From NCBI RefSeq assembly GCF_014696065.1, contig NZ_JACJPL010000001.1:1-64000 (forward strand): 64,000 bases of DNA. Reading direction: 5' to 3'. The notes under the pieces are model-generated. The model saw nothing but the letters and a program-made list of their open reading frames with translations. It was not told where the DNA came from and did not search any database. The DNA is from Leptolyngbya sp. FACHB-261 (GTDB lineage: Bacteria > Cyanobacteriota > Cyanobacteriia > FACHB-261). Below, piece after piece: positions 19,970-56,111 of this stretch. How positions within the stretch are numbered: the stretch's first letter is position 1; the number at the start of each line of letters is the position of its first letter. The position numbers and the translations under genes are program-made.

Positions 19970-20087
19970 GCACTGAGGCTAGGCACTAGCCGTGAGAAAG
20001 ATTGACTGCCTTGAAAAGCGATGTTACTCTGCAAAGTGAAAATTAAGTCGGCCTAATTCGGGGTTCTTGACAAAAGGTATCGGTACC

Positions 20088-20235
20088 AAAAGGAACTCGG
20101 AAGCGGAGGAACCAAATTGTGGGGCTTATCTCTAACCTCCTTCACCAGAAGCGAGGATAAACACGAGAGGGACATCTCTCAGTCCTAGCCCGTCAGCTAA
20201 CTCCGTCGGCGTTGGGAGGAGACTGAAGAGTCAAA
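20088..20235 (+). promoter_or_regulatory. c-di-AMP riboswitch (ydaO/yuaA leader)
   Basis: The leader carries the conserved blocks of the ydaO/yuaA class in the expected order: GGAGGAACC (ending at 20113), a TGTGGGGCTTATC block, a variable arm, then CCCGTCAGCTAAC (20189-20201) followed at once by a CCGTCGGCG block and GGGAGGAGACTGAAG. The class senses cyclic di-AMP and usually turns expression off when bound. The permease start is about 80 nt downstream. No strong U-tract terminator is obvious between them. A CCTA/TAGG pairing (20290-20293 with 20301-20304) overlaps the ribosome binding site and could be a translational expression platform. Recognition is by motif; a covariance search was not possible. 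Confidence 0.82.
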
Positions 20236-32149: not shown

Positions 32150-32548
32150 TCAAGCTTTGGCACTCGGCTTCGTGCTCTGGCCCTCTGGCGTCTCAGCTTT
32201 GGTTCTGGGTTTAGAGCGACGGCGGATATGCTCACTCTTACGCACACCTCCAGCCATTTCGTATTGAACGCTATCTTTGCCGTATGTGAAAGCAACCCCA
32301 ATCAGCATCTTCTCTGACATATCACCCAGAGTTTTCTCTAACTCAGCCATCTCTGTTTTGACCGAGTCAATGATCGCGATTGTGGTGTTGTAAATTTCAA
32401 TTTTTTCGCGCAAATCTGCAATCGTGCCGCTGAAGTTGCTGAGGCTCAGCGAGCCGCCAAAATCCAGCGCAGGACTAATTGCCTTAAGCCCAGAAGCCCG
32501 TTTCATCGCATTTTCCAAAACCCTCGTCGTCGATTTCTTGCGTCCCAT
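32150..32548 (-). CDS. conserved cyanobacterial protein of unknown function
   Basis: A 132-residue basic protein. Conserved-looking parts are the start GRKKSTTRVLENAMKRASGL, the central coiled-coil-like IADLREKIEIYNTTIAIID and the patch MLIGVAFTYGKDSVQYEMAG, followed by GGVRKSEHIRR and a Lys/Arg/Pro-rich tail. I recall similar proteins in many filamentous cyanobacteria, without a function. The tail could contact nucleic acid. It converges on the small ORF at 31868 with a 66-bp gap. Confidence 0.65.
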   Translation of the reverse strand: MGRKKSTTRVLENAMKRASGLKAISPALDFGGSLSLSNFSGTIADLREKIEIYNTTIAIIDSVKTEMAELEKTLGDMSEKMLIGVAFTYGKDSVQYEMAGGVRKSEHIRRRSKPRTKAETPEGQSTKPSAKA

Positions 32549-32738
32549 CTCTCGGTACCTAACTCATTCAAGAACTAGTCCAGGATGAACTATTTCCCTA
32601 GCACAACACCTCAGAAAAACTCAGGAAAATTTTCCCGCTTCCCTCCGTAATCCCCGAAGCCTCCTCCGTGTGTTTGCCAGGTTCCACTGCAAATTTTCTT
32701 AATACAAACTTGCACAGCTACCCTCCAGCAAGCAGTCT

Positions 32739-32927
32739 CAGTCACCCAGTTCAGATCATCAGTCACCAAACTCAGATCATCTGTTACCCAGTCCAGATCA
32801 TCTGTCACCACAAACCTGGTGACTTATACCGCCAACCGGGTGACAGTCACCACCAATCCTGTGACAGCTACACAGTTCAGGGTGACAGTCACCACACATT
32901 GCGCAACAGTCACTCAATCACTTCTGG
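32739..32927. repeat. nine tandem degenerate 21-bp repeats
   Basis: Nine consecutive units of exactly 21 bp, typified by CAGTCACCCAGTTCAGATCAT, CAGTCACCAAACTCAGATCAT and CTGTTACCCAGTCCAGATCAT. The later units share CAGTCACC and end in GTGA, making GGTGACAGTCACC palindromes at their junctions. The array ends 67 bp before the Uma2 start. Because 21 is divisible by three, several frames read as heptapeptides (SHxxQII on plus, VTDDLxW on minus), but no frame has a good start or family match. The rest of 32549-32994 shows nothing else. Confidence 0.75.
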
Positions 32928-32994
32928 CGCAGGAAACCACAATTGAACCCGGATAATAGAGGAGTGCTTACTTGCAAGCGAGAGGCGGGTGAAG

Positions 32995-45930: not shown

Positions 45931-46063
45931 AGCGAGAACTGGCATAAAGGGTGCGCCCTGACAGTAGGCACTTGATTTAGCGCTTGATTTAGCAATTAGT
46001 TTGCTGTCAGGACGCAGCGTTCAGAAGTAATCGGCCAATTACCTTAGCCAAGATTATTGAAGG

Positions 46064-46345
46064 TTATCGATTAAACTGGGGCCACTGGGCTCGCTGCTCT
46101 GTCTGCGCTTGAGACCCACTAGTTTGGCTGGTCGTTTGGCTGGTAGCTTCATTGGTTAAGCCTTTCTCCAGCACTTGTGTTCGCTCAACAGCTTGAGTCG
46201 TAACTGTTGCGTTGTGGGATCTCTGCGCTGCTTCCAGATTGCGTACACTATGCTGAGCGTCAGAAGGTCCAATTTCAGCTTGGGCAGTGGGCACCAAAGC
46301 TAGGCTAAATACAGTCGCGAGGGTAAGCTTCTTCAGTAAATCCAT
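46064..46345 (-). CDS. small periplasmic protein
   Basis: 93 residues with a classical signal peptide (MDLLKKLTLATVFSLALV...AQAE, cleavage after about residue 23). The mature part is polar, Gln/Thr/Ser-rich and Cys-free (QTTSQTSGSQAQTEQ), probably disordered or helical. It shares a promoter element with the cytochrome b561-kinase-regulator operon and is likely part of that regulon. It may be a periplasmic accessory or signal-modulating peptide; I do not recognise the family. Confidence 0.65.
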   Translation of the reverse strand: MDLLKKLTLATVFSLALVPTAQAEIGPSDAQHSVRNLEAAQRSHNATVTTQAVERTQVLEKGLTNEATSQTTSQTSGSQAQTEQRAQWPQFNR

Positions 46346-46423
46346 GATGTTGCCTCCTGTTTTTGAGCAGTTGAGTAAGCTTGATTGGCTTACATCTTCA
46401 TCATGAAAAACCTTGCTAAATTC

Positions 46424-46457
46424 AGCCTGAAGCTTGTGTGAGCCCTTTCTTAGGTTG
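46424..46457 (-). promoter_or_regulatory. shared promoter element, copy 2
   Basis: GCCTGAAGCTTGTGTGAG followed by CCCTTTCTTAGGTTG, 79-112 bp upstream of the 93-residue gene. It is the same distance from its start codon as copy 1 is from the cytochrome gene, which argues for a regulator site rather than chance. Confidence 0.6.
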
Positions 46458-46636
46458 AGGCTTTTATGTGCTTTTTCTTATTTTGTTCAGGTTATTTTGT
46501 TGAGGCTACTGAAGACACTACTTTTTAGGTGTCTTGGATTGAGGCACAGGCGCAATAGCCAGCGAAGCGATGTGTCCTTTCCAGGCTTAGGCTAGGATCA
46601 GTTTGCTGCTGGCTTGGAAGTGGGAAAGGATTGGGC

Positions 46637-47140
46637 ATGACAGACCGAAGCAGGCGAAGGATTTTAGCAGGGCTGTCGGGCTTTCTGCTGATGGGTTGTG
46701 CAACTTCGGCTCCAGCGGCATCACCGACGCTCCAGGCGCAGAAGCCTGCTGAGATGCGTCAAATGCTGCCGATTAGCGCTCGCGCTCAGATTGGGCGAGA
46801 GGTAATTGAACTGGAAGTGGCGCAAACTCCCGAGCAGCAGGAGATTGGGTTGATGAACCGCACCTCGTTGCCTGCCAATCGCGGTATGTTGTTTCCGTTT
46901 GATCCGCCCAAGACGGTGAGTTTCTGGATGAAGAACACCAAGATTGCCTTGGATATGGTGTTCCTGCGCGAGGGTCGGGTGCAGAAGATTACTCGCAACG
47001 TGCCACCTTGCACGGCGGATCCCTGTCCGCTCTATCCCTCTGATGTGGTGATCGATCACGTGCTGGAGTTGCGGGGGGGGCGGGCAGCTGAGTTGGGCTT
47101 GCGCGTGGGTGATTCGGTGCGAATTGAGTTCCCGAACTAG
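46637..47140 (+). CDS. DUF192 family lipoprotein
   Basis: 167 residues from the ATG at 46637, after GGAAAGGATTGG. SRRRILAGLSGFLLMGCATS gives a membrane segment with a lipobox-like Cys. The DUF192 domain shows VAQTPEQQEIGLMNRTSLP, NRGMLFPFDPPKTVSFWMKN and RNVPPCTADPCPLYPSD. The family (UPF0127) is widespread and its function is unknown. Confidence 0.88.
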   Translation: MTDRSRRRILAGLSGFLLMGCATSAPAASPTLQAQKPAEMRQMLPISARAQIGREVIELEVAQTPEQQEIGLMNRTSLPANRGMLFPFDPPKTVSFWMKNTKIALDMVFLREGRVQKITRNVPPCTADPCPLYPSDVVIDHVLELRGGRAAELGLRVGDSVRIEFPN

Positions 47141-47498
47141 ATTTTGAACTGGATTTTCACAGTTTGGTTCTCAGATCTGACTCTTTCATCCGGTTGCTGA
47201 AATAGACCGGGTGGAAGGAAGGACAAGACTGACAGAGAGCGGGTACTAACCGGCCCTTTGAAGAACAGATGTGCAGCAAATTGCAGTTTTCGGTCAGGTG
47301 GATCGCAGGATTCGGTCTGCGCTGGTTCTGTTCTTGGCAATCGATTTGGCATTAAGGAACGATGCTTTCTTAATGGTCTTTCTTTAGCGTGGGACGCAGA
47401 TAACTGGGGCCTGTTTAGAAGCGAATTTGAGCGAAAAACTGGCTTGATCAACTGAGTTTGGCTAGATCGTTGCAAATTTAGTAATCGAGAATACAGGC
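47141..47498. other. intergenic region, nothing distinctive
   Basis: 358 bp of promoter-like DNA. Small frames on both strands here are not gene-like. No repeats or hairpins stand out. Confidence 0.4.
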
Positions 47499-48590
47499 AT
47501 GGCAACCGATTACATTGTGTTTGTTCACGGGGTTAATACTCGTGAGCAGCGCGAACAGTCTTCTTACGCTGATGATTTGTTTGAGCGGATTCAGGATTGC
47601 CTGGTGCAGGATAGTTGTCAGCGTGGCGGACTTTCAGTGAAGGTTAAATCGGTGCCGCTCTATTGGGGTGATGTGAATAAGCAAGCGGAGGATGAACTGC
47701 TCGCTAAGCTAAGAGACCCACAAGGTTGTTGCTGGGATAAGCTCTGGTTTAAGGAGTTTCGCGCTAAGCAGTTGTTGCAGTTTGCGGGGGATGCAGCTCT
47801 ATTTATTAGCCGCAAAGTTGGTTCCAAGATTGTTGATGAGCTGAAGCAGCAGGCGCTTGCGCACTTAGAGGGCTATCAACCAGAGGACCGGCTGCATCTA
47901 GTGACTCACAGTTGGGGCACGGTGATCTTGTTTGACATTCTGTTTGCGGCGCGTTGGGACCAGAAGGGCATGCCGGGATACCAGAGTGCGCAGGCGATAA
48001 GGCAAGGCATGTTTGGTATGGGACCGAACCCCGAGCAGGGCATTCGTCTGGCCAGTATTCACACGATGGGTTCGCCGATTGCGCTGTTTAGTCTGATTGA
48101 TGTGGTGCAGGGCAAGGATATTGAGCGTGGCCAACGGGAACTGACGCAGGGTGAGAGCGTTCAGATGAGTTCGCACGACATTACGCCGCAGTTGCAGGAG
48201 TTGCTTAAGAATATGCACCAGATGTTGGGGCTGAAGAAGCTGCCCTGGCACAACTTTATCCATCCTGGGGATCCGGTGGCCTATCCTCTGGCTTGTCTGA
48301 TGTCGGACCTAGTAGATGGCAAGAAGCGATACCTCGATATTCGAGACCGGGTGCTGCGCAATTCCACCCTGCTGGACTATCTGAACCAGCCGGTGAGCCA
48401 GTGCTTTTTGTCGCTGTTGCATGGGGGCAGTGCCCACAGCAGCTACTGGAAAAACCAGGAAGTGGCTGAGACAATTGCGCAAACGATTCGAGATTCAGCG
48501 AAACAATCACTGACGGCGCTGCCCTGCTGTTCGTTGCCAGATGGACAGGGGATCTCACCCGCTTTGGTCTCAGGGCGGCGAGGGGTCTGA
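47499..48590 (+). CDS. alpha/beta-hydrolase-like protein of unknown function
   Basis: A 363-residue protein beginning MATDYIVFVHGVNTREQREQ, the oxyanion HG motif of alpha/beta hydrolases. The nucleophile elbow is in HLVTHSWGTVILFDIL (HSWG), and later candidate triad residues include the His in HNFIHPGDPVAYPLA. The long insert between these and the lack of a signal peptide fit a cytosolic lipase- or esterase-like protein conserved in cyanobacteria. The substrate is unknown. Confidence 0.72.
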   Translation: MATDYIVFVHGVNTREQREQSSYADDLFERIQDCLVQDSCQRGGLSVKVKSVPLYWGDVNKQAEDELLAKLRDPQGCCWDKLWFKEFRAKQLLQFAGDAALFISRKVGSKIVDELKQQALAHLEGYQPEDRLHLVTHSWGTVILFDILFAARWDQKGMPGYQSAQAIRQGMFGMGPNPEQGIRLASIHTMGSPIALFSLIDVVQGKDIERGQRELTQGESVQMSSHDITPQLQELLKNMHQMLGLKKLPWHNFIHPGDPVAYPLACLMSDLVDGKKRYLDIRDRVLRNSTLLDYLNQPVSQCFLSLLHGGSAHSSYWKNQEVAETIAQTIRDSAKQSLTALPCCSLPDGQGISPALVSGRRGV

Positions 48591-48637
48591 GCCTAGATGC
48601 AAACTCTAAGCTCAAACCTTAGATTCAAACTCTGGAC

Positions 48638-49627
48638 TCAAACGGTCACAACAATTTTGCCGTTTTGCTGGTTGGATTCCATGTAGCGATGGGCTTCAAC
48701 GATGTCGTTAAGGGCAAAGCTGCGGTCGAGGATAGGTTTGAGCTTGCCAGATTGCAGACCGTCATAGACATAGCGTTTGCCCCGTGCCAGTCTCTCAGGG
48801 TTCTGGGTAATTTCAAAGAGGATATAGCCTCGGATAGTCAAGGTTTTGGCGAGGGCGGCAAACAGTGGAAAGGGGGTGGGCTCTGGGCTGAGCGCGCCGT
48901 ACTCGAAAATGGTTGCGCCAGGAGCGGCGGCTTGGGCGAGGGTTTCGAGGAAAGGACCGGCGACAGGGTCGAAGATCAAGTCGGCTCCGTGTCCGGCGCT
49001 GAGTTCCATGACGCGGCTGGGTAGGTCTTCCTCTTCAGTGACGATCACCTGGTCAGCACCCATGTCGAGCAGAGCTTGTTTCTTGGCAGCAGTGCGCGTG
49101 CTGGCGATGGCTACGGCTCCAGCGGCTTTGGTGATTTGAATGGCGGCGAGGCCAACGCTACTGCTGGCCGCGGGAATCAGAACGTAGTGGTTGGACTGGA
49201 GTTGGCCGTATTCGATTAGGGCACCGTAGGCGGTGAGGTATTGCATCCAGATCGCAGCGCCTTCCTGGGCGGAGAGGGTTTCAGGATAGGTCGCGACGGC
49301 GTAGGCGGGGACGACGGCGCTTTCGCCGTAGACGCCATACTTTTGCATGGAAAAGGCGGGAATGCTGCTGACTCGATCGCCCACCTGGAAGTCGCTAACG
49401 CCGGGTCCAATGGCATCAATGGTGCCTGCTGCTTCGTAGCCTAAGCGTGAGGGCAGTTGGGGGTCTTCTAGATACTGCCCTTGGCGAAACATGACTTCAG
49501 CTCGGTTGAGGCCAATGGCTTCGACTTTGAGCCTCACCTCGCCTTCGCCGGGTTCTTGCAAAGGCAATTCTTCTAGCTTGAGAACGTCTGCGTCGCCGGT
49601 TTGGTGAAAGCGAACGATTTTTGCCAT
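48638..49627 (-). CDS. zinc-type alcohol dehydrogenase-like / quinone oxidoreductase family protein
   Basis: A 329-residue MDR-superfamily enzyme. EGEVRLKVEAIGLNRAEVMF and RLGYEAAGTIDAIGPGVSDF are the N-terminal signatures. YVLIPAASSSVGLAAIQIT contains a modified nucleotide-binding loop, and the C-terminus ends QNGKIVVTV. No structural zinc lobe (four Cys) is present, so it belongs to the zinc-independent quinone-oxidoreductase branch, NADPH-dependent in relatives. The ATG at 49627 is the usual start. Confidence 0.9.
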   Translation of the reverse strand: MAKIVRFHQTGDADVLKLEELPLQEPGEGEVRLKVEAIGLNRAEVMFRQGQYLEDPQLPSRLGYEAAGTIDAIGPGVSDFQVGDRVSSIPAFSMQKYGVYGESAVVPAYAVATYPETLSAQEGAAIWMQYLTAYGALIEYGQLQSNHYVLIPAASSSVGLAAIQITKAAGAVAIASTRTAAKKQALLDMGADQVIVTEEEDLPSRVMELSAGHGADLIFDPVAGPFLETLAQAAAPGATIFEYGALSPEPTPFPLFAALAKTLTIRGYILFEITQNPERLARGKRYVYDGLQSGKLKPILDRSFALNDIVEAHRYMESNQQNGKIVVTV

Positions 49628-49715
49628 TGTGAAGCTCCTGAGCGGTTAGCACTAGGGGTTTCTACCCAAGCGCTTTGCTCTTGCACTCTAGCAAGGAAGT
49701 CTTGACCTGGCTGAG

Positions 49716-49964
49716 ATGCTTGCCTGCTGGGTAGCAGCAGATGTACACCAACTGGGGGGAGGGTATCTCCAATTAGGGCGCTTTGCGCTCAGGTTGGGAA
49801 GGCAGTATCTCCAAGTGGGGAGCTTTGCGCTCCAGGTGGGAAAGCAGTATCTCCAGGTGGAGGTTTTTGCTCTCCAGTTGCCGAGAAGCTATCTCAACCT
49901 AAAAAGCTTTGCGCTCAGTCTGGGGAAAACCTATCTAGAGTTGACAGCATTAGGCGCTAGTTAG
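49716..49964 (+). CDS. possible heptad-repeat protein encoded by the left 42-bp array
   Basis: 82 codons open across the repeat array. The protein is a string of heptads: RQYLQVG, SFALQVG, KQYLQVE, VFALQLP, RSYLNLK. This would be an amphipathic repeat protein, but the start (TTG at 49716) has no ribosome binding site, and the equivalent frame of the right-hand array contains stops, so the repeat seems conserved as nucleic acid rather than protein. Confidence 0.25.
   Translation: MLACWVAADVHQLGGGYLQLGRFALRLGRQYLQVGSFALQVGKQYLQVEVFALQLPRSYLNLKSFALSLGKTYLELTALGAS
49743..49945. repeat. left array of 42-bp hairpin repeats
   Basis: Five units with TATCT cores at 49764, 49806, 49848, 49890 and 49932, an exact 42-bp period. 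Each unit is a dimer of 21-bp halves: one like GGGAAGGCAGTATCTCCA, one like GGGGAGCTTTGCGCTCCA. Each half can form a small hairpin (for example GGAGC/GCTCC). The same repeat occurs at 52079-52266. Confidence 0.85.
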
Positions 49965-50347
49965 ACAGATGTTATCTCTAGCGAAATGCGGTTACTCGCA
50001 TTAACCTAAAAAGCTCAAGTCAGTCAGGCCAGCCGTGAGTCCCTGAAACAACAGGCTCCCTTTAAGGCGCGCGGCGTATATCTTTACCCAGGGAAAGGCT
50101 GACAGGACCACCGGCTTTTTGCCAGGGAAGGCTAAACAGGATCCCAAGTCAGAAAAGCAGCGAACGCTCCTGGTTGGCAATCTCTTGCGAACGGCAAGTT
50201 TTGCGTAATTTTACAGACTATGCAGAGTTGTCATGATTTCGTTATTTCTAGTTCCAAACGGTTAGATTCGTTACACTTTTCGCTGTTCCAAACTACACCC
50301 AATCAACAGCGGATTTTTAATGACGATTTAATCCAAGGAGAATGAAT
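49965..50347. other. leader region of the peroxidase gene
   Basis: No gene. Two direct repeats, CCAGGGAAAGGCTGACAGGA and CCAGGGAAGGCTAAACAGGA (50089-50152), lie about 200 bp upstream of the peroxidase. A/T-rich DNA at 50200-50330 may hold its promoter, and AGGAG at 50336-50340 is its ribosome binding site. Confidence 0.45.
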
Positions 50348-51856
50348 ATGACTCGGCATGGCTATATGCCCCTAGGCGGTGACAACCCGCCCAGATCCAT
50401 CTATTACGACCAAGGTAAATTCGGGCGGCTTTTTCCATCACTCCCTGCTTTCGCAATGGATAGCCCGAAGCTGCGAGAGGCGCTTAAGGAGATTGGTAAG
50501 CAGGGCGGCATCATGGACCCTAAAGATGATCTAGATGATCCTATTGGTCTGATCACCAACCCCGCAAAGAACGTTGACAATCCCAACAACCCAAATTTGA
50601 CTGCTGGCAATACGTTCCTGGGTCAATTTCTCGATCATGACATGACCTTCGACCCCACCTCCAGCCTAGAACGTCAGCAAGATCCTGAAACGATTGCTAA
50701 CTTCCGTACCCCTGTTTTAGAACTAGATAACTTATACGGTTCTGGACCAAACGTCTCACCGTATCTATACGACCAATCAAGCGAGGGTGGGGGCATAAAA
50801 TTCCTGGTGGAATTGATTCCTGGATCGGATGCCGTATCTCGTGACGGAAAGTTACGCTTTGACCTGCCGCGCAATAGCCAGAACGTTGCTTTGATTGGCG
50901 ATCCACGCAACGATGAGAACTTGATTGTCTCGCAGCTGCATCTTGCCTTTTTGAAGTTTCACAATGCAGTCGTGGACCATGTGAAATCGAAAACGGGTTG
51001 GACTCATCCAGGGGAAGTGTTTGCCGAGGCACAGCGCTTGGTTCGGTGGCACTATCAGTGGATTATCGTCCACGAATTTCTACCCGCCATAGTGGGCAAC
51101 AAGACACTAGAGAGGGTGCTGACGAAGGGGCGCAAGTTCTACAATTGGCGCAATCTGCCGTTTATTCCAGTCGAGTTTTCGGTGGCCGCCTATCGGTTTG
51201 GGCATTCTCAAGTGCGCCCCAGCTACCGCGCTAACTTTGGGCCAAAGCCAGATAATAGTGGGGAATTTATTGCCTTAATCTTTGACGATGGCAAACACAC
51301 TTCCCCCAATCCAGATGCCGCGGATCCTAACGATCTGCGAGGCGGCAAGCGAGCGGCTCGTCGTTTTATAGACTGGCAGACCTTCTTTGATTTCGGCGAT
51401 AAGCGAGTCCGGCCAAATAAGAAGATTGATACGAAGCTTTCCTCGGTGTTGTTTGACTTACCTGGCATTCCGGGTGCAGAGCCGCAATCACTGGCGCAGC
51501 GTAATTTGCTACGTCATCTCACGTTCAGCGTTCCATCAGGGCAACGCGTCGCCAAAGCGATGAGTGAGGACATACTTTCGCCTGAGGATTTAGCAGATCT
51601 CAAACCATACCAATTGGAGACTCGTACGCCTCTCTGGTTTTACATTCTGCGCGAAGCGGATGTACTCGGTAAAGACGGAAGGCACTTGGGACCAGTCGGT
51701 GGACGCATTGTTGCAGAGGTCTTTATTGGTCTGCTAGAGGGAGACCGTTTATCCTACTTGCGGCAGGATCCAGAATGGAAACCCACCCTAAGTAATACCG
51801 GAACCTTCACGATGGTTGATCTGCTCAAGTTCGCAGGTGTGGTGACTAATTTGTAG
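50348..51856 (+). CDS. animal-type haem peroxidase
   Basis: About 502 residues from the ATG at 50348 (seven bases after AGGAG; the ATG at 50342 is too close). The family core is clear: GNTFLGQFLDHDMTFDPTS contains the distal His (about 96), ELDNLYGSG the Ca-region, DLPRNSQNVALIGDPRNDEN, and AAYRFGHSQVRPSY the proximal His (about 283). ILREADVLGKDGRHLGPVGG and FIGLLEGDR close the domain. No signal peptide or Hox-type extensions. Members oxidise halides or organic substrates with peroxide. It stands alone between two arrays of the same 42-bp repeat. Confidence 0.92.
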   Translation: MTRHGYMPLGGDNPPRSIYYDQGKFGRLFPSLPAFAMDSPKLREALKEIGKQGGIMDPKDDLDDPIGLITNPAKNVDNPNNPNLTAGNTFLGQFLDHDMTFDPTSSLERQQDPETIANFRTPVLELDNLYGSGPNVSPYLYDQSSEGGGIKFLVELIPGSDAVSRDGKLRFDLPRNSQNVALIGDPRNDENLIVSQLHLAFLKFHNAVVDHVKSKTGWTHPGEVFAEAQRLVRWHYQWIIVHEFLPAIVGNKTLERVLTKGRKFYNWRNLPFIPVEFSVAAYRFGHSQVRPSYRANFGPKPDNSGEFIALIFDDGKHTSPNPDAADPNDLRGGKRAARRFIDWQTFFDFGDKRVRPNKKIDTKLSSVLFDLPGIPGAEPQSLAQRNLLRHLTFSVPSGQRVAKAMSEDILSPEDLADLKPYQLETRTPLWFYILREADVLGKDGRHLGPVGGRIVAEVFIGLLEGDRLSYLRQDPEWKPTLSNTGTFTMVDLLKFAGVVTNL

Positions 51857-52078
51857 GAACCCAATTGGGTAAGGGTGCAATCTAGGGTGAGGGCGATCGC
51901 TAAGTTTCCACGCGATTGCCCTCACTTAAAACTAATGCGAAGCTCGTAAGCTGTTGACGCTAAGAGATTCTGCCCAGGGCTTTACTCTTGCCCTCTAGCA
52001 AGGAGGCTTTTGATTACCCTCTGTGCAGGATTGGCCTGGCTGAGGTGCTCGTCTGGGGAGGGGCGGCGGATGCGCACG

Positions 52079-52266
52079 ATTTGGGGAGATAGCATCTCCA
52101 TGCGGGGAGCTTTGCGCTCCGGTTGGGGAGGTAGTATCTCCAGGTAGGGAACTTTGCGCTCCGGTTGGACGACTTGCTCCGCTAAGTGGGCAGCTTTGCG
52201 CTCTGGTTGGGGAGATAGCATCTCTAGTTGGGGAGATTTGCGCTCTGGTTAGGAAAATGCATCTCA
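52079..52266. repeat. right array of 42-bp hairpin repeats
   Basis: Units at 52093, 52135, about 52177 (degenerate), 52219 and 52260 keep a 42-bp period. The two 21-bp halves are GGGGAGATAGCATCTCCA (a near-perfect palindrome) and GGGGAGCTTTGCGCTCCG. It is in direct orientation with the left array and closely similar, with in-frame stops in the frame that is open on the left. The rest of 51857-52400 holds only short T-rich leader DNA. Confidence 0.85.
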
Positions 52267-52400
52267 AGGCTGTGCGAGACACTCTTCAACTAGGCAAGCA
52301 ACTTTAGAATTAGCCGAGGAGACCCTGCTTAAAATGTTTTGGCTGTCTCTAACAGGATCGCCTAGACTTGTAGGCATCAAATTTTAGCAGCGGTGTCTTC

Positions 52401-55241
52401 ATGACAGACGACAAGCAGGGGCAAGATCCGCTCAGTCTAGAAAAGCTCAAGGAACAAATTGCACAGATTTTGACAGGCTGGGGACCGCCTGGTATTGGGA
52501 TTGGGTTAGCTGCTCATTTTGCTAAAGAGAAGCAATGGCAGGAGGCTCTACTATCCTTGTTTTTGGCAGCAGTCATATGGTTTTCAACCAAGCTATTTAA
52601 AAAACTAGATCCGCGAACAGATTCTCTTTTAGAAGCAATTCTCACTTGGCTAGAAAGAGCTATACCAAAGCTTTGGTGGAGTCTAACTTCCAACTTTCAA
52701 GGCAAGTATTACCAAAACCTAATTTATACCCATCAAGACTTTAAGATGGAAGGCTTTAAACTTGGAACATCAGTTCTGACTCTAGAGAAAGTATTTGTGC
52801 CGTTGCGAGTTGCGGCAGGAGATCCAGAGCAAATCTCGGCAGCAATGGTTCAAGAAAAGCAGGCAACTGGCGAGCTAGGTATTTGGGATTTTCTGATTCC
52901 TAAGAAACTACCCGGTCAACGCAAAAAAGAACTGACCCGCTGCTGTATTGCTGTGATTGGTCCACCGGGTTCAGGTAAGACTACGGTGCTGAAGCATCTA
53001 ACTTTAACCTATGCCAATAATGCTCAGCGCCGACAACACCAGGAAGCTCGAAATCTACTCCCAATCTTGTTGTACTTGCGAGATATCAAAGAGGTAATTA
53101 CACAGCAGAATGCACCTAGCTTGTCGCAGGTGATCACGGAGCAATTGAAAAACCGGCTGCCTGCACTGAGGCTCGAACCACCCTCTAATTGGTTTGAAAC
53201 TCGGCTGAGGCGCGGCAAATGTTTGGTGATGCTGGATGGGCTAGATGAAGTAGCTGATGCCAAGCAGCGCCAGCAAGTTAGCGCATGGGTTAATCAACAA
53301 GTAGAGGCTTATCCTGAGACCGCATTTATCTTAACCTCAAGACCTTTTGGTTACCGCAGTGCGCCTGTCGAGCAAGCAAACACCATTCTGGAGGTGCAGC
53401 CATTCAATCTCAAGCAGATAGAGCAGTTCATTGAGAGTTGGTATCTGCAAACTGAAATCAAGGAGCGAGCGGGAGAGGATAACCCAGGAGTTCAAGCTGA
53501 GGCTCAAACTCAGGCAAATGATCTAATCGAGCGAATCAAACAGAACCCACCGTTGGCAGCAATGGCACTCAATCCGTTGCTGCTCACGATGATTGCAACT
53601 GTTCACCGCTATCGAGGGGCGCTACCAGGTCGCAGAATACAGCTTTATGCTGAAATTTGTAATGTGTTACTAGGAAGACGACAGGAGGCCAAGAAGATCC
53701 CTGATCGGCTTACGGTTGAGCAGAAGAAATCTGTCTTACAGGTCTTAGCCTTAGCACTAATGCAACAGAAAACTCGCCAATTCACACCAAGCAGGGATGA
53801 GCACCTAATTCAGGATGCATTGGCAACTGTAGCAGGCACCCAAGAGAAACCTATTGAGTTCCTCAAGCAAATCAGAGATGTGAGCGGCTTGCTAGTTGAG
53901 AAAGAATTGGACCTTTACGAGTTTGCCCACAAGAGTTTCCAAGAATACCTAGCAGCAGTTCAGATTAAAGAAGCACAACAGGAACAGCTTTTAATTGAGA
54001 ATGTCAATAACCCATGGTGGGACGAAACTATCCGCCTTTACGCTGCTCAGAGCGATGCCACTAATCTGATTCGTGCTGCCCTTAAAAACCCAACTGTCAT
54101 ATCTTTGACACTTGCTTATGAATGTTTAGAAGAAGGAGCACGAATCCAACCTGAGGTGCGGAGGCAACTGGAAGACAAACTAGAAGCAGGCTTGGAGTCT
54201 ACAGATTTAGAGATTGCCAAACTAGCAGCAGAAGTGAAGTTGTCACGACGATTGAATAAATTACTTCGAGTGGATGACTGTGTAGAGATTGACGTGGGTT
54301 ACATCACTTGTGCAGAGTATCAGCTCTTTATTGATGAAAAGCTGAACGCAGGTGAGCACCGTCAGCCCGATCACTGGAAAGCTCGAAGATTTTCACTTGG
54401 GGATGCAACTAAGCCGATTACTGGTGTGCGCGCTAGCGATGCTAAAGAATTCTGCGACTGGCTAACTCAGAAACATGCCATACCAAGTACCCGATATAGG
54501 TTGCCTACTGTAAATGAAGATAAGAATCATCCAGATACCGAAAAACAAATTGGCTGCTGGTGCGAAGTTGAAGGAGGCACTGTTATCAGAGGGATCGAGC
54601 CTATTCAGTGGCAGGCTTGGAAGGGAAATCTAATTAGTGCCCTCGACCGCGACCTCGACCGCGTCCTTGTCCGCGACCTCGACCGCGACCGCGACCTCGT
54701 CCGCGACCTCGTCCGCGTCCTTGTCCGCGACCTCGACCTCGTCCGCGACCTCGTCCTCGACCGCGACCTCATCCGCGTCCGCGTCCTCGACCGCGTCCGC
54801 GACCTCATCCGCGACCTCGACCGCAACCTCGACCGCGTCCGCGTCCGCGACCTCGTCCGCGACCGCGACCTCGACCGCAACCTCGACCGCGTCCGCGACC
54901 TCGTCCGCGACCTCGTCCGCGACCTCGTCCGCGTCCTCGACCTCGACCGCGACCGCGACCTCGACGGTAATTACAGCTTTGCCCGCTCCTACCTACTATC
55001 GACCTCTATTTCTTGGCACCTACTATCAGATGTTTATAAGAGAGCATCTAGCAATAAAAAATTGTCACAAGTTACGAACGTAAGTCGTCAAGAGCTCGAA
55101 ATGCAGAGCCAGAGCTACCCAGAAAAGGGAGATGAAGCCCTCAGGCTCTACGCTTTTTTTGTCCTACTAGAAGAACGACGCGAAGGTCGTATGCCTGCCT
55201 GGGAAGGAATTCGAATCGTGCGAGAGCGAGTACGGGAGTAA
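52401..55241 (+). CDS. NACHT NTPase with hexanucleotide-encoded repeat and FGE-sulfatase-like C-terminus
   Basis: A 946-residue receptor-like STAND protein. An N-terminal region with a hydrophobic helix (LLSLFLAAVIWFSTKLF, 50-66) is followed by the NACHT domain: Walker A GPPGSGKTT at 187-195, Walker B CLVMLDGLDEVADA, LTSRPFGY sensor and an LAAMALNPLLLTMIATVHR winged part. From about residue 625 it reads as a formylglycine-generating-enzyme-like domain (CVEIDVGYITCAEYQLFIDE, RYRLPTVNE), interrupted at 746-855 by an (L/R)(D/V) dipeptide repeat, then finishes RQELEMQSQSYPEKGDEALR and AWEGIRIVRE. The N-terminal module would be the effector. The repeat region is probably a variable solenoid or linker. 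Function inferred as defence or signalling. Confidence 0.88.
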   Translation: MTDDKQGQDPLSLEKLKEQIAQILTGWGPPGIGIGLAAHFAKEKQWQEALLSLFLAAVIWFSTKLFKKLDPRTDSLLEAILTWLERAIPKLWWSLTSNFQGKYYQNLIYTHQDFKMEGFKLGTSVLTLEKVFVPLRVAAGDPEQISAAMVQEKQATGELGIWDFLIPKKLPGQRKKELTRCCIAVIGPPGSGKTTVLKHLTLTYANNAQRRQHQEARNLLPILLYLRDIKEVITQQNAPSLSQVITEQLKNRLPALRLEPPSNWFETRLRRGKCLVMLDGLDEVADAKQRQQVSAWVNQQVEAYPETAFILTSRPFGYRSAPVEQANTILEVQPFNLKQIEQFIESWYLQTEIKERAGEDNPGVQAEAQTQANDLIERIKQNPPLAAMALNPLLLTMIATVHRYRGALPGRRIQLYAEICNVLLGRRQEAKKIPDRLTVEQKKSVLQVLALALMQQKTRQFTPSRDEHLIQDALATVAGTQEKPIEFLKQIRDVSGLLVEKELDLYEFAHKSFQEYLAAVQIKEAQQEQLLIENVNNPWWDETIRLYAAQSDATNLIRAALKNPTVISLTLAYECLEEGARIQPEVRRQLEDKLEAGLESTDLEIAKLAAEVKLSRRLNKLLRVDDCVEIDVGYITCAEYQLFIDEKLNAGEHRQPDHWKARRFSLGDATKPITGVRASDAKEFCDWLTQKHAIPSTRYRLPTVNEDKNHPDTEKQIGCWCEVEGGTVIRGIEPIQWQAWKGNLISALDRDLDRVLVRDLDRDRDLVRDLVRVLVRDLDLVRDLVLDRDLIRVRVLDRVRDLIRDLDRNLDRVRVRDLVRDRDLDRNLDRVRDLVRDLVRDLVRVLDLDRDRDLDGNYSFARSYLLSTSISWHLLSDVYKRASSNKKLSQVTNVSRQELEMQSQSYPEKGDEALRLYAFFVLLEERREGRMPAWEGIRIVRERVRE
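54639..54966. repeat. hexanucleotide repeat region inside the NACHT gene
   Basis: About 330 bp made almost wholly of codons CTC or CGC alternating with GAC or GTC (for example CTCGACCGCGACCTCGTCCG). Each hexamer encodes one of LD, LV, RD, RV, so the protein is a two-letter alphabet at alternating positions. All three plus frames and at least one minus frame remain open through it, a direct result of the repeat. Confidence 0.95.
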
Positions 55242-55250
55242 ACCCATTTA

Positions 55251-56111
55251 TCAATAGGAAGCAGAACGCTCGATTGATAGGTCAGGTTTTCTCCTGCCCA
55301 CATAGAGAAAATGATCTGACATCCCAAGTCCTTCCAAGGTATTACCCGTTTCCTCAATTAAATCTAACCAGGCTTCTACTTCCGTTGATGCAAGATTAGC
55401 CATCACCTCTTGGCAAGAATTTGCAAAAGACTCAGTACCAATCAGAGCGATTCCATCGAAACCAGCTTCAAACAACTCTCGAAATTCCTGAGAGGTTGTC
55501 AAGTGAGCATAGCCAATGGGAGCCGCATGTTCTGGGTCAAGATTTCCATCTTGCAAAAACTGCCGGTGAAAATCCTGACGAGGCAGAACCGAATGAGGAT
55601 TATTTTGTAGCAGATCTCGAAGATAGGCCAGACGATTAATGCCTGCGGCAAACAGCAAACCATTGGGCTTGAGCACTCTAGCTGCCTCCTGAATCGCGCG
55701 TTGCCGTTGCTCAAGCGAACAGAGATGGTAGAGCGGTCCCAGAAAAAGAACTGCATCCAGTACACCAGCATCGCAACAATCAAGTTCTGTCGCTGAAGCT
55801 CGATGGACCCCAGCCACTCGTTCATGCAAATCAAAGCCTTGAAGCCTAAGGTAGGCAGCATCCAGCAATCGTTGCGAGATATCCACCAGGTAAACCGAAC
55901 AACCCCACCTTGCTAGCAATTCTGCATAGTGACCAACGCCAACACCAATGTCAGCAACTGTCGCTCCCTCCGGTATCCATTGCTTCAAGTAGCGAGCAGT
56001 AATCGCAAACTCAACTGGAGAATACTGAGACAAACGCACCGACTCAAAATCAAAAATCGAGTTGTCGTAATACCGAGCCACCCTTGCTTGCATCTCATCA
56101 AGATCGCTCAT
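55251..56111 (-). CDS. class I SAM-dependent methyltransferase
   Basis: 286 residues. Motif I ATVADIGVGVGHYAELLARW (glycine-rich), motif II YLVDISQRLLDAA, a DAVLFLGPLYHL post-motif and KPNGLLFAAGINR are those of Methyltransf_11/25-type enzymes. DNSIFDFESVRLSQYSPVEFAI near the N-terminus is typical of a family found in many bacteria. The substrate is unknown. It converges on the NACHT gene with a 9-bp gap. Confidence 0.88.
   Translation of the reverse strand: MSDLDEMQARVARYYDNSIFDFESVRLSQYSPVEFAITARYLKQWIPEGATVADIGVGVGHYAELLARWGCSVYLVDISQRLLDAAYLRLQGFDLHERVAGVHRASATELDCCDAGVLDAVLFLGPLYHLCSLEQRQRAIQEAARVLKPNGLLFAAGINRLAYLRDLLQNNPHSVLPRQDFHRQFLQDGNLDPEHAAPIGYAHLTTSQEFRELFEAGFDGIALIGTESFANSCQEVMANLASTEVEAWLDLIEETGNTLEGLGMSDHFLYVGRRKPDLSIERSASY

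Follow-up and report, generated by a model that had tools for sequence, protein, structure and literature searches.

An orphan pair of cyanobacterial arrays with a 21-bp period on either side of a haem peroxidase gene

Two stretches of repeated DNA beside a peroxidase gene of the cyanobacterium Leptolyngbya sp. FACHB-261 were found to belong to a class of cyanobacterial repeat arrays, built in exact steps of 21 bp, that are often attached to genes for small helical proteins of unknown function, whereas the peroxidase itself seems to have nothing to do with them. The window analyzed is a stretch of 64,000 nucleotides (contig NZ_JACJPL010000001.1, positions 1 to 64,000) from a genome of 6.95 Mb in 36 contigs (designated G000). 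The observation made in a preliminary description of the sequence, namely two arrays of the same 42-bp repeat flanking a haem peroxidase, is confirmed, while the interpretation offered there is only partly supported: the view that the conserved entity is nucleic acid and not a peptide is supported, but the proposal that the arrays make the peroxidase a unit of recombination is not supported.

The left array (49754-49963, plus strand) is composed of about five 42-bp units, the last one decayed, and the right array (52083-52266, plus strand) of 4.5 copies of period 42 as given by TRF, thus the five units each side claimed previously are slightly generous. Each unit is made of two related 21-bp halves, and both arrays keep the 42-bp register outside genes without an indel when wrapped. 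The units are head-to-tail and diverged and no spacers are present, unlike in a CRISPR array. A local alignment of left against right scored 246, compared with at most 66 in 200 mononucleotide shuffles, and revealed that the homology is longer than first described: both arrays are parts of two copies (about 330 bp, leader plus array) of one element, running from about 49631 to 49937 and from about 51934 to 52265, with a 22-bp indel. The non-repetitive leader of the left element (49631-49753, plus strand) begins about 4 bp from the start codon of a zinc-binding dehydrogenase/quinone-oxidoreductase-like gene (48638-49627, minus strand), a weak homology further out to 49603 not being trusted, while the leader of the right element (51934-52082, plus strand) is 22 bp longer. 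Between both elements lies the 504-codon gene (50342-51856, plus strand) of an animal-type haem peroxidase, confirmed by Pfam (An_peroxidase, E 1.9e-25); a second haem peroxidase, 45% identical, is present elsewhere in the genome (G000:C31:718342-719808). Downstream of the right array we found a NACHT NTPase gene (52401-55241, plus strand), whose C-terminal part includes a 12-bp-based coding repeat (54641-54965, RDLDRDRDLV...) near a weak FGE-sulfatase-like match.

The palindromic cores claimed for the half-units are only partly supported. Over 18 half-units the GGAG..CTCC arms form 62 of 108 possible Watson-Crick pairs against a shuffle mean of 54.4 (reached by 27 of 2000 shuffles), and the A halves alone show no excess. 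When fold energies were compared with those of column-permuted arrays, which keep period and composition, the left array was more structured than expected on both strands (z -2.75 and -2.23), the right one not clearly so (-0.65 and -1.71). No array matched an Rfam model, either in positions 46000-56000 up to E 5 or in the window and 15 further loci at the gathering score; the window does contain a c-di-AMP riboswitch at 20074-20226 (RF00379, 55.3 bits, gathering 38). A promoter and terminator scan was uninformative, with one promoter-like site against 2.0 expected and seven terminator-like sites against 3.7.

As 21 bp is also seven codons, we asked whether the arrays are decayed coding repeats, since the left array has an open frame of 82 codons that would encode heptads (SFALQVG/KQYLQVG). 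As previously described, the right array carries stops, five of them, in that frame; moreover, a second plus frame is open on the left up to its last codon and another one on the right, so openness is not special, and the differences between left and right fall 13:8:13 over codon positions 1:2:3, which is not the pattern of a coding sequence. Several arrays elsewhere also carry stops in the matched frame, and we consider a former heptad-repeat protein very unlikely.

The preliminary description had also proposed that the arrays, being direct repeats about 2.3 kb apart, would allow the peroxidase to be lost, duplicated or acquired by recombination. Although the orientation and spacing are as stated, the two copies are 76% identical over their best ungapped block of 138 bp and the longest exact run they share is 17 bp. 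The five cyanobacterial loci having the nearest peroxidases (L044-L048, 72-80% identity) show no 21/42/63-bp array anywhere in the DNA examined. Of 75 non-cyanobacterial peroxidase loci, 6 show such a lag somewhere when coding DNA is included and none outside long ORFs; in seven of Sphingopyxis type (L099-L105) an oxidoreductase 28-31% identical to the window's dehydrogenase lies close to the peroxidase, which may reflect the common superfamily only. The finding of arrays all over the genome had been set beforehand as the result that would refute the cassette, and it was obtained for the class, as 21/42-bp arrays with other units recur throughout the sampled genome and lie beside many other genes. 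We regard the cassette as highly unlikely.

The 42-bp unit itself was detected by blastn only at this pair. The right element found no other copy in its own genome and no match in a plasmid collection; in 95 other cyanobacteria, 8 gave a single short hit each (22-50 bp, E 7e-4 to 0.01) that we took for chance, and a consensus of three units found nothing in 387 other genomes. However, a translated search with the left frame hit 19 of 388 genomes, this one included, and the hits retrieved were nearly all arrays of period 21 with quite different units: 28 of 29 loci, two of them from this genome, have a period-21 row, while the other one (L149) gave no row at that score. A lag scan outside ORFs of 130 aa or more gave, at lags 21/42/63, 8/10/3 in 864 kb of the own genome (no other lag above 3), and 4/4/4 and 9/7/6 in 200 kb each of two other cyanobacteria, G257 and G333, but 0/0/0 in 400 kb from 20 further cyanobacteria and 0/0/0 in 883 kb of the non-cyanobacterial loci. 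The class is therefore real but limited to some lineages, bearing in mind that G257 and G333 were chosen because the search had hit them and the 20 others because their genomes are single contigs. Unit sequences differ from array to array. The orientation of neighbouring genes shows no promoter bias, with 4 divergent, 14 tandem and 7 convergent contexts among 25 arrays of the own genome, G257 and G333, against a background of 97, 170 and 46; three arrays at the end of a stretch were left out, and the 25 include doubtful ones such as a lysine-rich coding stretch (locus L174) and 7-bp arrays.

Examination of the neighbours of the arrays in the own genome led us to three gene families, termed here A, B and C, for which profile comparison gave only 1-5% probability of belonging to one superfamily and which had no Pfam match above cut-off. 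Family A (222-236 aa, with the NCBIfam PQLLE family as a below-cut-off match) has five copies in this genome and was absent from 193 and 144 other genomes searched; at a fixed threshold (84-bp window, lag identity 0.58) 3 of 5 have an array within 450 bp upstream, the other two show the register only by eye, and one passes downstream. Family B (132 aa, motif YGKDSxEYExAGGxRKSER) has 12 copies in this genome, of which 8 have an array upstream and 0 downstream, and occurs in 81 of 388 genomes. In 30 loci, which are the best match of each genome rather than a random sample and one of which (L276) is from this genome, an array was present upstream in 25 of the 29 with at least 300 bp of upstream sequence, and downstream in 0 of 30; the lags reaching the threshold upstream were 21 (24 loci), 42 (15), 63 (14), 62 (7), 41 (2) and 61 (1), and none did so downstream. 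Family C (158 aa) occurs in 77 of 368 genomes and displays the opposite side: among 30 loci, one of them (L306) from this genome, the array is downstream in 22 of the 28 with enough sequence and upstream in 2 of 30, although among the 11 copies of this genome it is upstream in 4 and downstream in 3. By comparison, ordinary genes score about 2-8%, the baseline for ORFs of 120 aa or more in the same stretches being 10 upstream and 9 downstream of 581 in the own genome, 5 and 4 of 148 in G257, and 7 and 10 of 120 in G333. At the genome level, 15 of 18 other genomes hit by the array search carry B, against 80 of 387 overall (Fisher 8e-9). A named case is plasmid pA of Kovacikia minuta, with a B gene and a 42-bp-period array upstream, and with a second array, of period 41, downstream of that gene (L341 3915-4163).

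The same window holds one complete module of this class, made of a family B gene (32153-32548, minus strand) and a 21-bp-period array upstream of it (32703-32931, minus strand). A single-sequence structure model of this B protein gives a short helix, a long helix and a disordered basic tail, although at low confidence (pLDDT 67, pTM 0.31). Comparison with solved structures returned nothing for A, only matches with E above 0.18 for C, and for B one 29-residue match to an engineered DARPin extension (6mol, E 1.2e-6), corresponding to the conserved YGKDS..EYE..AGG.RKSE stretch at positions 82-110 of the family B profile, all others having E above 0.08.

In contrast, the pair flanking the peroxidase has no A, B or C gene or recognisable remnant next to it, no match better than E 0.36 being found in the two flanks searched (49560-50345 and 51850-52405), and we call these arrays orphan duplicates. 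The left array lies about 125 bp from the start of the dehydrogenase gene, the same kind of place in which array-linked genes sit elsewhere, but one case proves nothing. Their nearest relative is an array beside the C26 family A gene, only weakly similar (nhmmer E 0.09, tblastn E 0.006); both the C26 array and the right array lie upstream of, and in the orientation of, a NACHT gene (L183 6633-9731 and window 52401-55241), two cases that may be due to chance. Other arrays lacking an A, B or C neighbour also occur in the 864 kb sampled (L173, L178, L211 and L220).

To explore how array and protein go together, we compared both within the families. B arrays are directional, with TGTCG present at least twice on the gene strand in 15 of 32 and on the other strand in 2 of 32. 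Array similarity follows protein identity (rho 0.48 for B, n=32, and 0.53 for C, n=23; 0 of 1000 permutations as high). Both facts are also expected of joint inheritance; more telling, B proteins about 0.9 identical have arrays that share only 0.5-0.58 in unit profile, so the period outlasts the sequence.

Our favoured explanation, which remains tentative, is that the two arrays are old duplicate, orphan copies of this class of intergenic DNA arrays and that each array is a row of binding sites spaced by two turns of the DNA helix (21 bp) and bound by its cognate basic coiled-coil protein, for self-regulation or as an anchoring site on the chromosome; orphan arrays such as this pair would be left-over or secondary sites, the peroxidase merely lying between them. 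The analysis establishes the exact period, the linkage to genes, its family-specific side and the joint inheritance of array and protein, whereas binding, helical phasing and any regulatory or anchoring role are inferred from sequence alone, without binding or expression data. The 3' position of C arrays in other genomes, and their presence on either side in this one, does not suit a simple operator and speaks for a docking site or an RNA role.

An RNA role would imply that the arrays are transcribed and that the repeated hairpins bind or restrain the linked small protein, as repeat-RNA antitoxins do in type III toxin-antitoxin systems, orphan arrays being solitary antitoxin-like RNAs. In favour of this view, C arrays are more structured than column-permuted arrays on the gene strand (mean z -2.51, 15 of 23 below -2) than on the other (-1.68, 9 of 23), the left array of the window is structured as well, each copy has its own unit sequence and B arrays are directional. 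However, B arrays are barely structured (mean z -0.83, opposite strand -1.17), and the right array of the window is not clearly structured (z -0.65). In type III systems such as ToxIN tandem repeats lie directly upstream of a small protein gene, a position seen for B (25 of 29) while C has them downstream (upstream in 2 of 30), and the window pair has no such gene. No Pfam, NCBIfam or PADLOC toxin match and no ToxN-type ribonuclease was found for A, B or C, the best match in the defence library being a partial one of one B protein to LmuB (E 0.0037), and the B protein is predicted, at low confidence, to be helical. We consider this reading unlikely.

Only slightly less doubtful is that gene-plus-array modules are selfish or mobile units, with arrays that are by-products of slippage or unequal recombination without function in the host, the window pair being a decayed local duplicate. 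The many dispersed paralogues in some lineages (12 B, 11 C and 5 A copies here), the fast unit turnover, the orphan arrays and the 7-bp tandem arrays beside or near 21-bp arrays in other cyanobacterial genomes (L140, L143, L150-L153, L155, L162, L163 and L191) would agree with it. Nevertheless, no transposase-like match was found for A, B or C, and no terminal inverted repeats on the window elements, the only local inverted repeat (51887-51925) being outside the right leader. Slippage alone does not explain one exact period or the family-specific side, and the arrays of this genome show no 7-bp sub-period (lag-7 excess -0.03, against +0.076 in other genomes).

No description of gene-linked 21-bp arrays in cyanobacteria was found in the literature (among others PMC4666352 and PMC5987646), a weak negative as only open full text was covered. 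The closest described element is the BrickBuilt minisatellite/MITE of Porphyromonas gingivalis (PMC4596501), also an intergenic, multi-copy element with a leader and a head-to-tail array of fixed period (23 bp) and variable unit number; it has, however, terminal inverted repeats, one shared unit sequence in the genome and no linked protein family in the text consulted, whereas here the period is 21 bp, terminal inverted repeats are absent, each locus has a different unit and genes are linked. The heptameric tandem repeats of cyanobacteria (GGGGA(C/T)T in Nostoc, PMC4692102) are also mostly intergenic and in multiples of 7 bp, but the present unit is three times longer, diverged and linked to specific genes; related work on STRR sequences is reported from Mazel. 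TAACTGA heptamer repeats (PMC4679880) are dispersed upstream of genes and also found in cyanobacteria, although they consist of one fixed 7-bp sequence, mostly directly at start codons in the main genome studied. Centromere or iteron arrays such as parC/ParR share tandem sites in register next to the gene of a small binding protein; here there are many copies per genome, binding is only inferred and an ATPase partner was neither sought nor seen. REP/RAYT modules likewise link dispersed repeats to a gene family, but no transposase of the IS200/IS605 kind was detected for A, B or C, and the arrays are tandem with a fixed period rather than paired palindromes.

Taken further, the evidence leaves possible, though again only tentatively, that some large-genome cyanobacteria carry an undescribed protein-array system, with at least three unrelated families of small helical proteins, each encoded beside its own array with a helix-locked 21-bp period, from one to dozens of modules per genome; each protein would recognise its own fast-evolving array, and orphan arrays such as the window pair would extend its reach over the chromosome. 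Tandem repeats between cyanobacterial genes are easily set aside as junk or slippage products, yet here a single exact period recurs with unrelated sequences and the arrays sit on a fixed side of particular gene families that no Pfam model covers, which makes a testable protein-array pairing out of two kinds of unexplained sequence at once and gives a marker (period 21, family B or C) with which to look for it in any genome.
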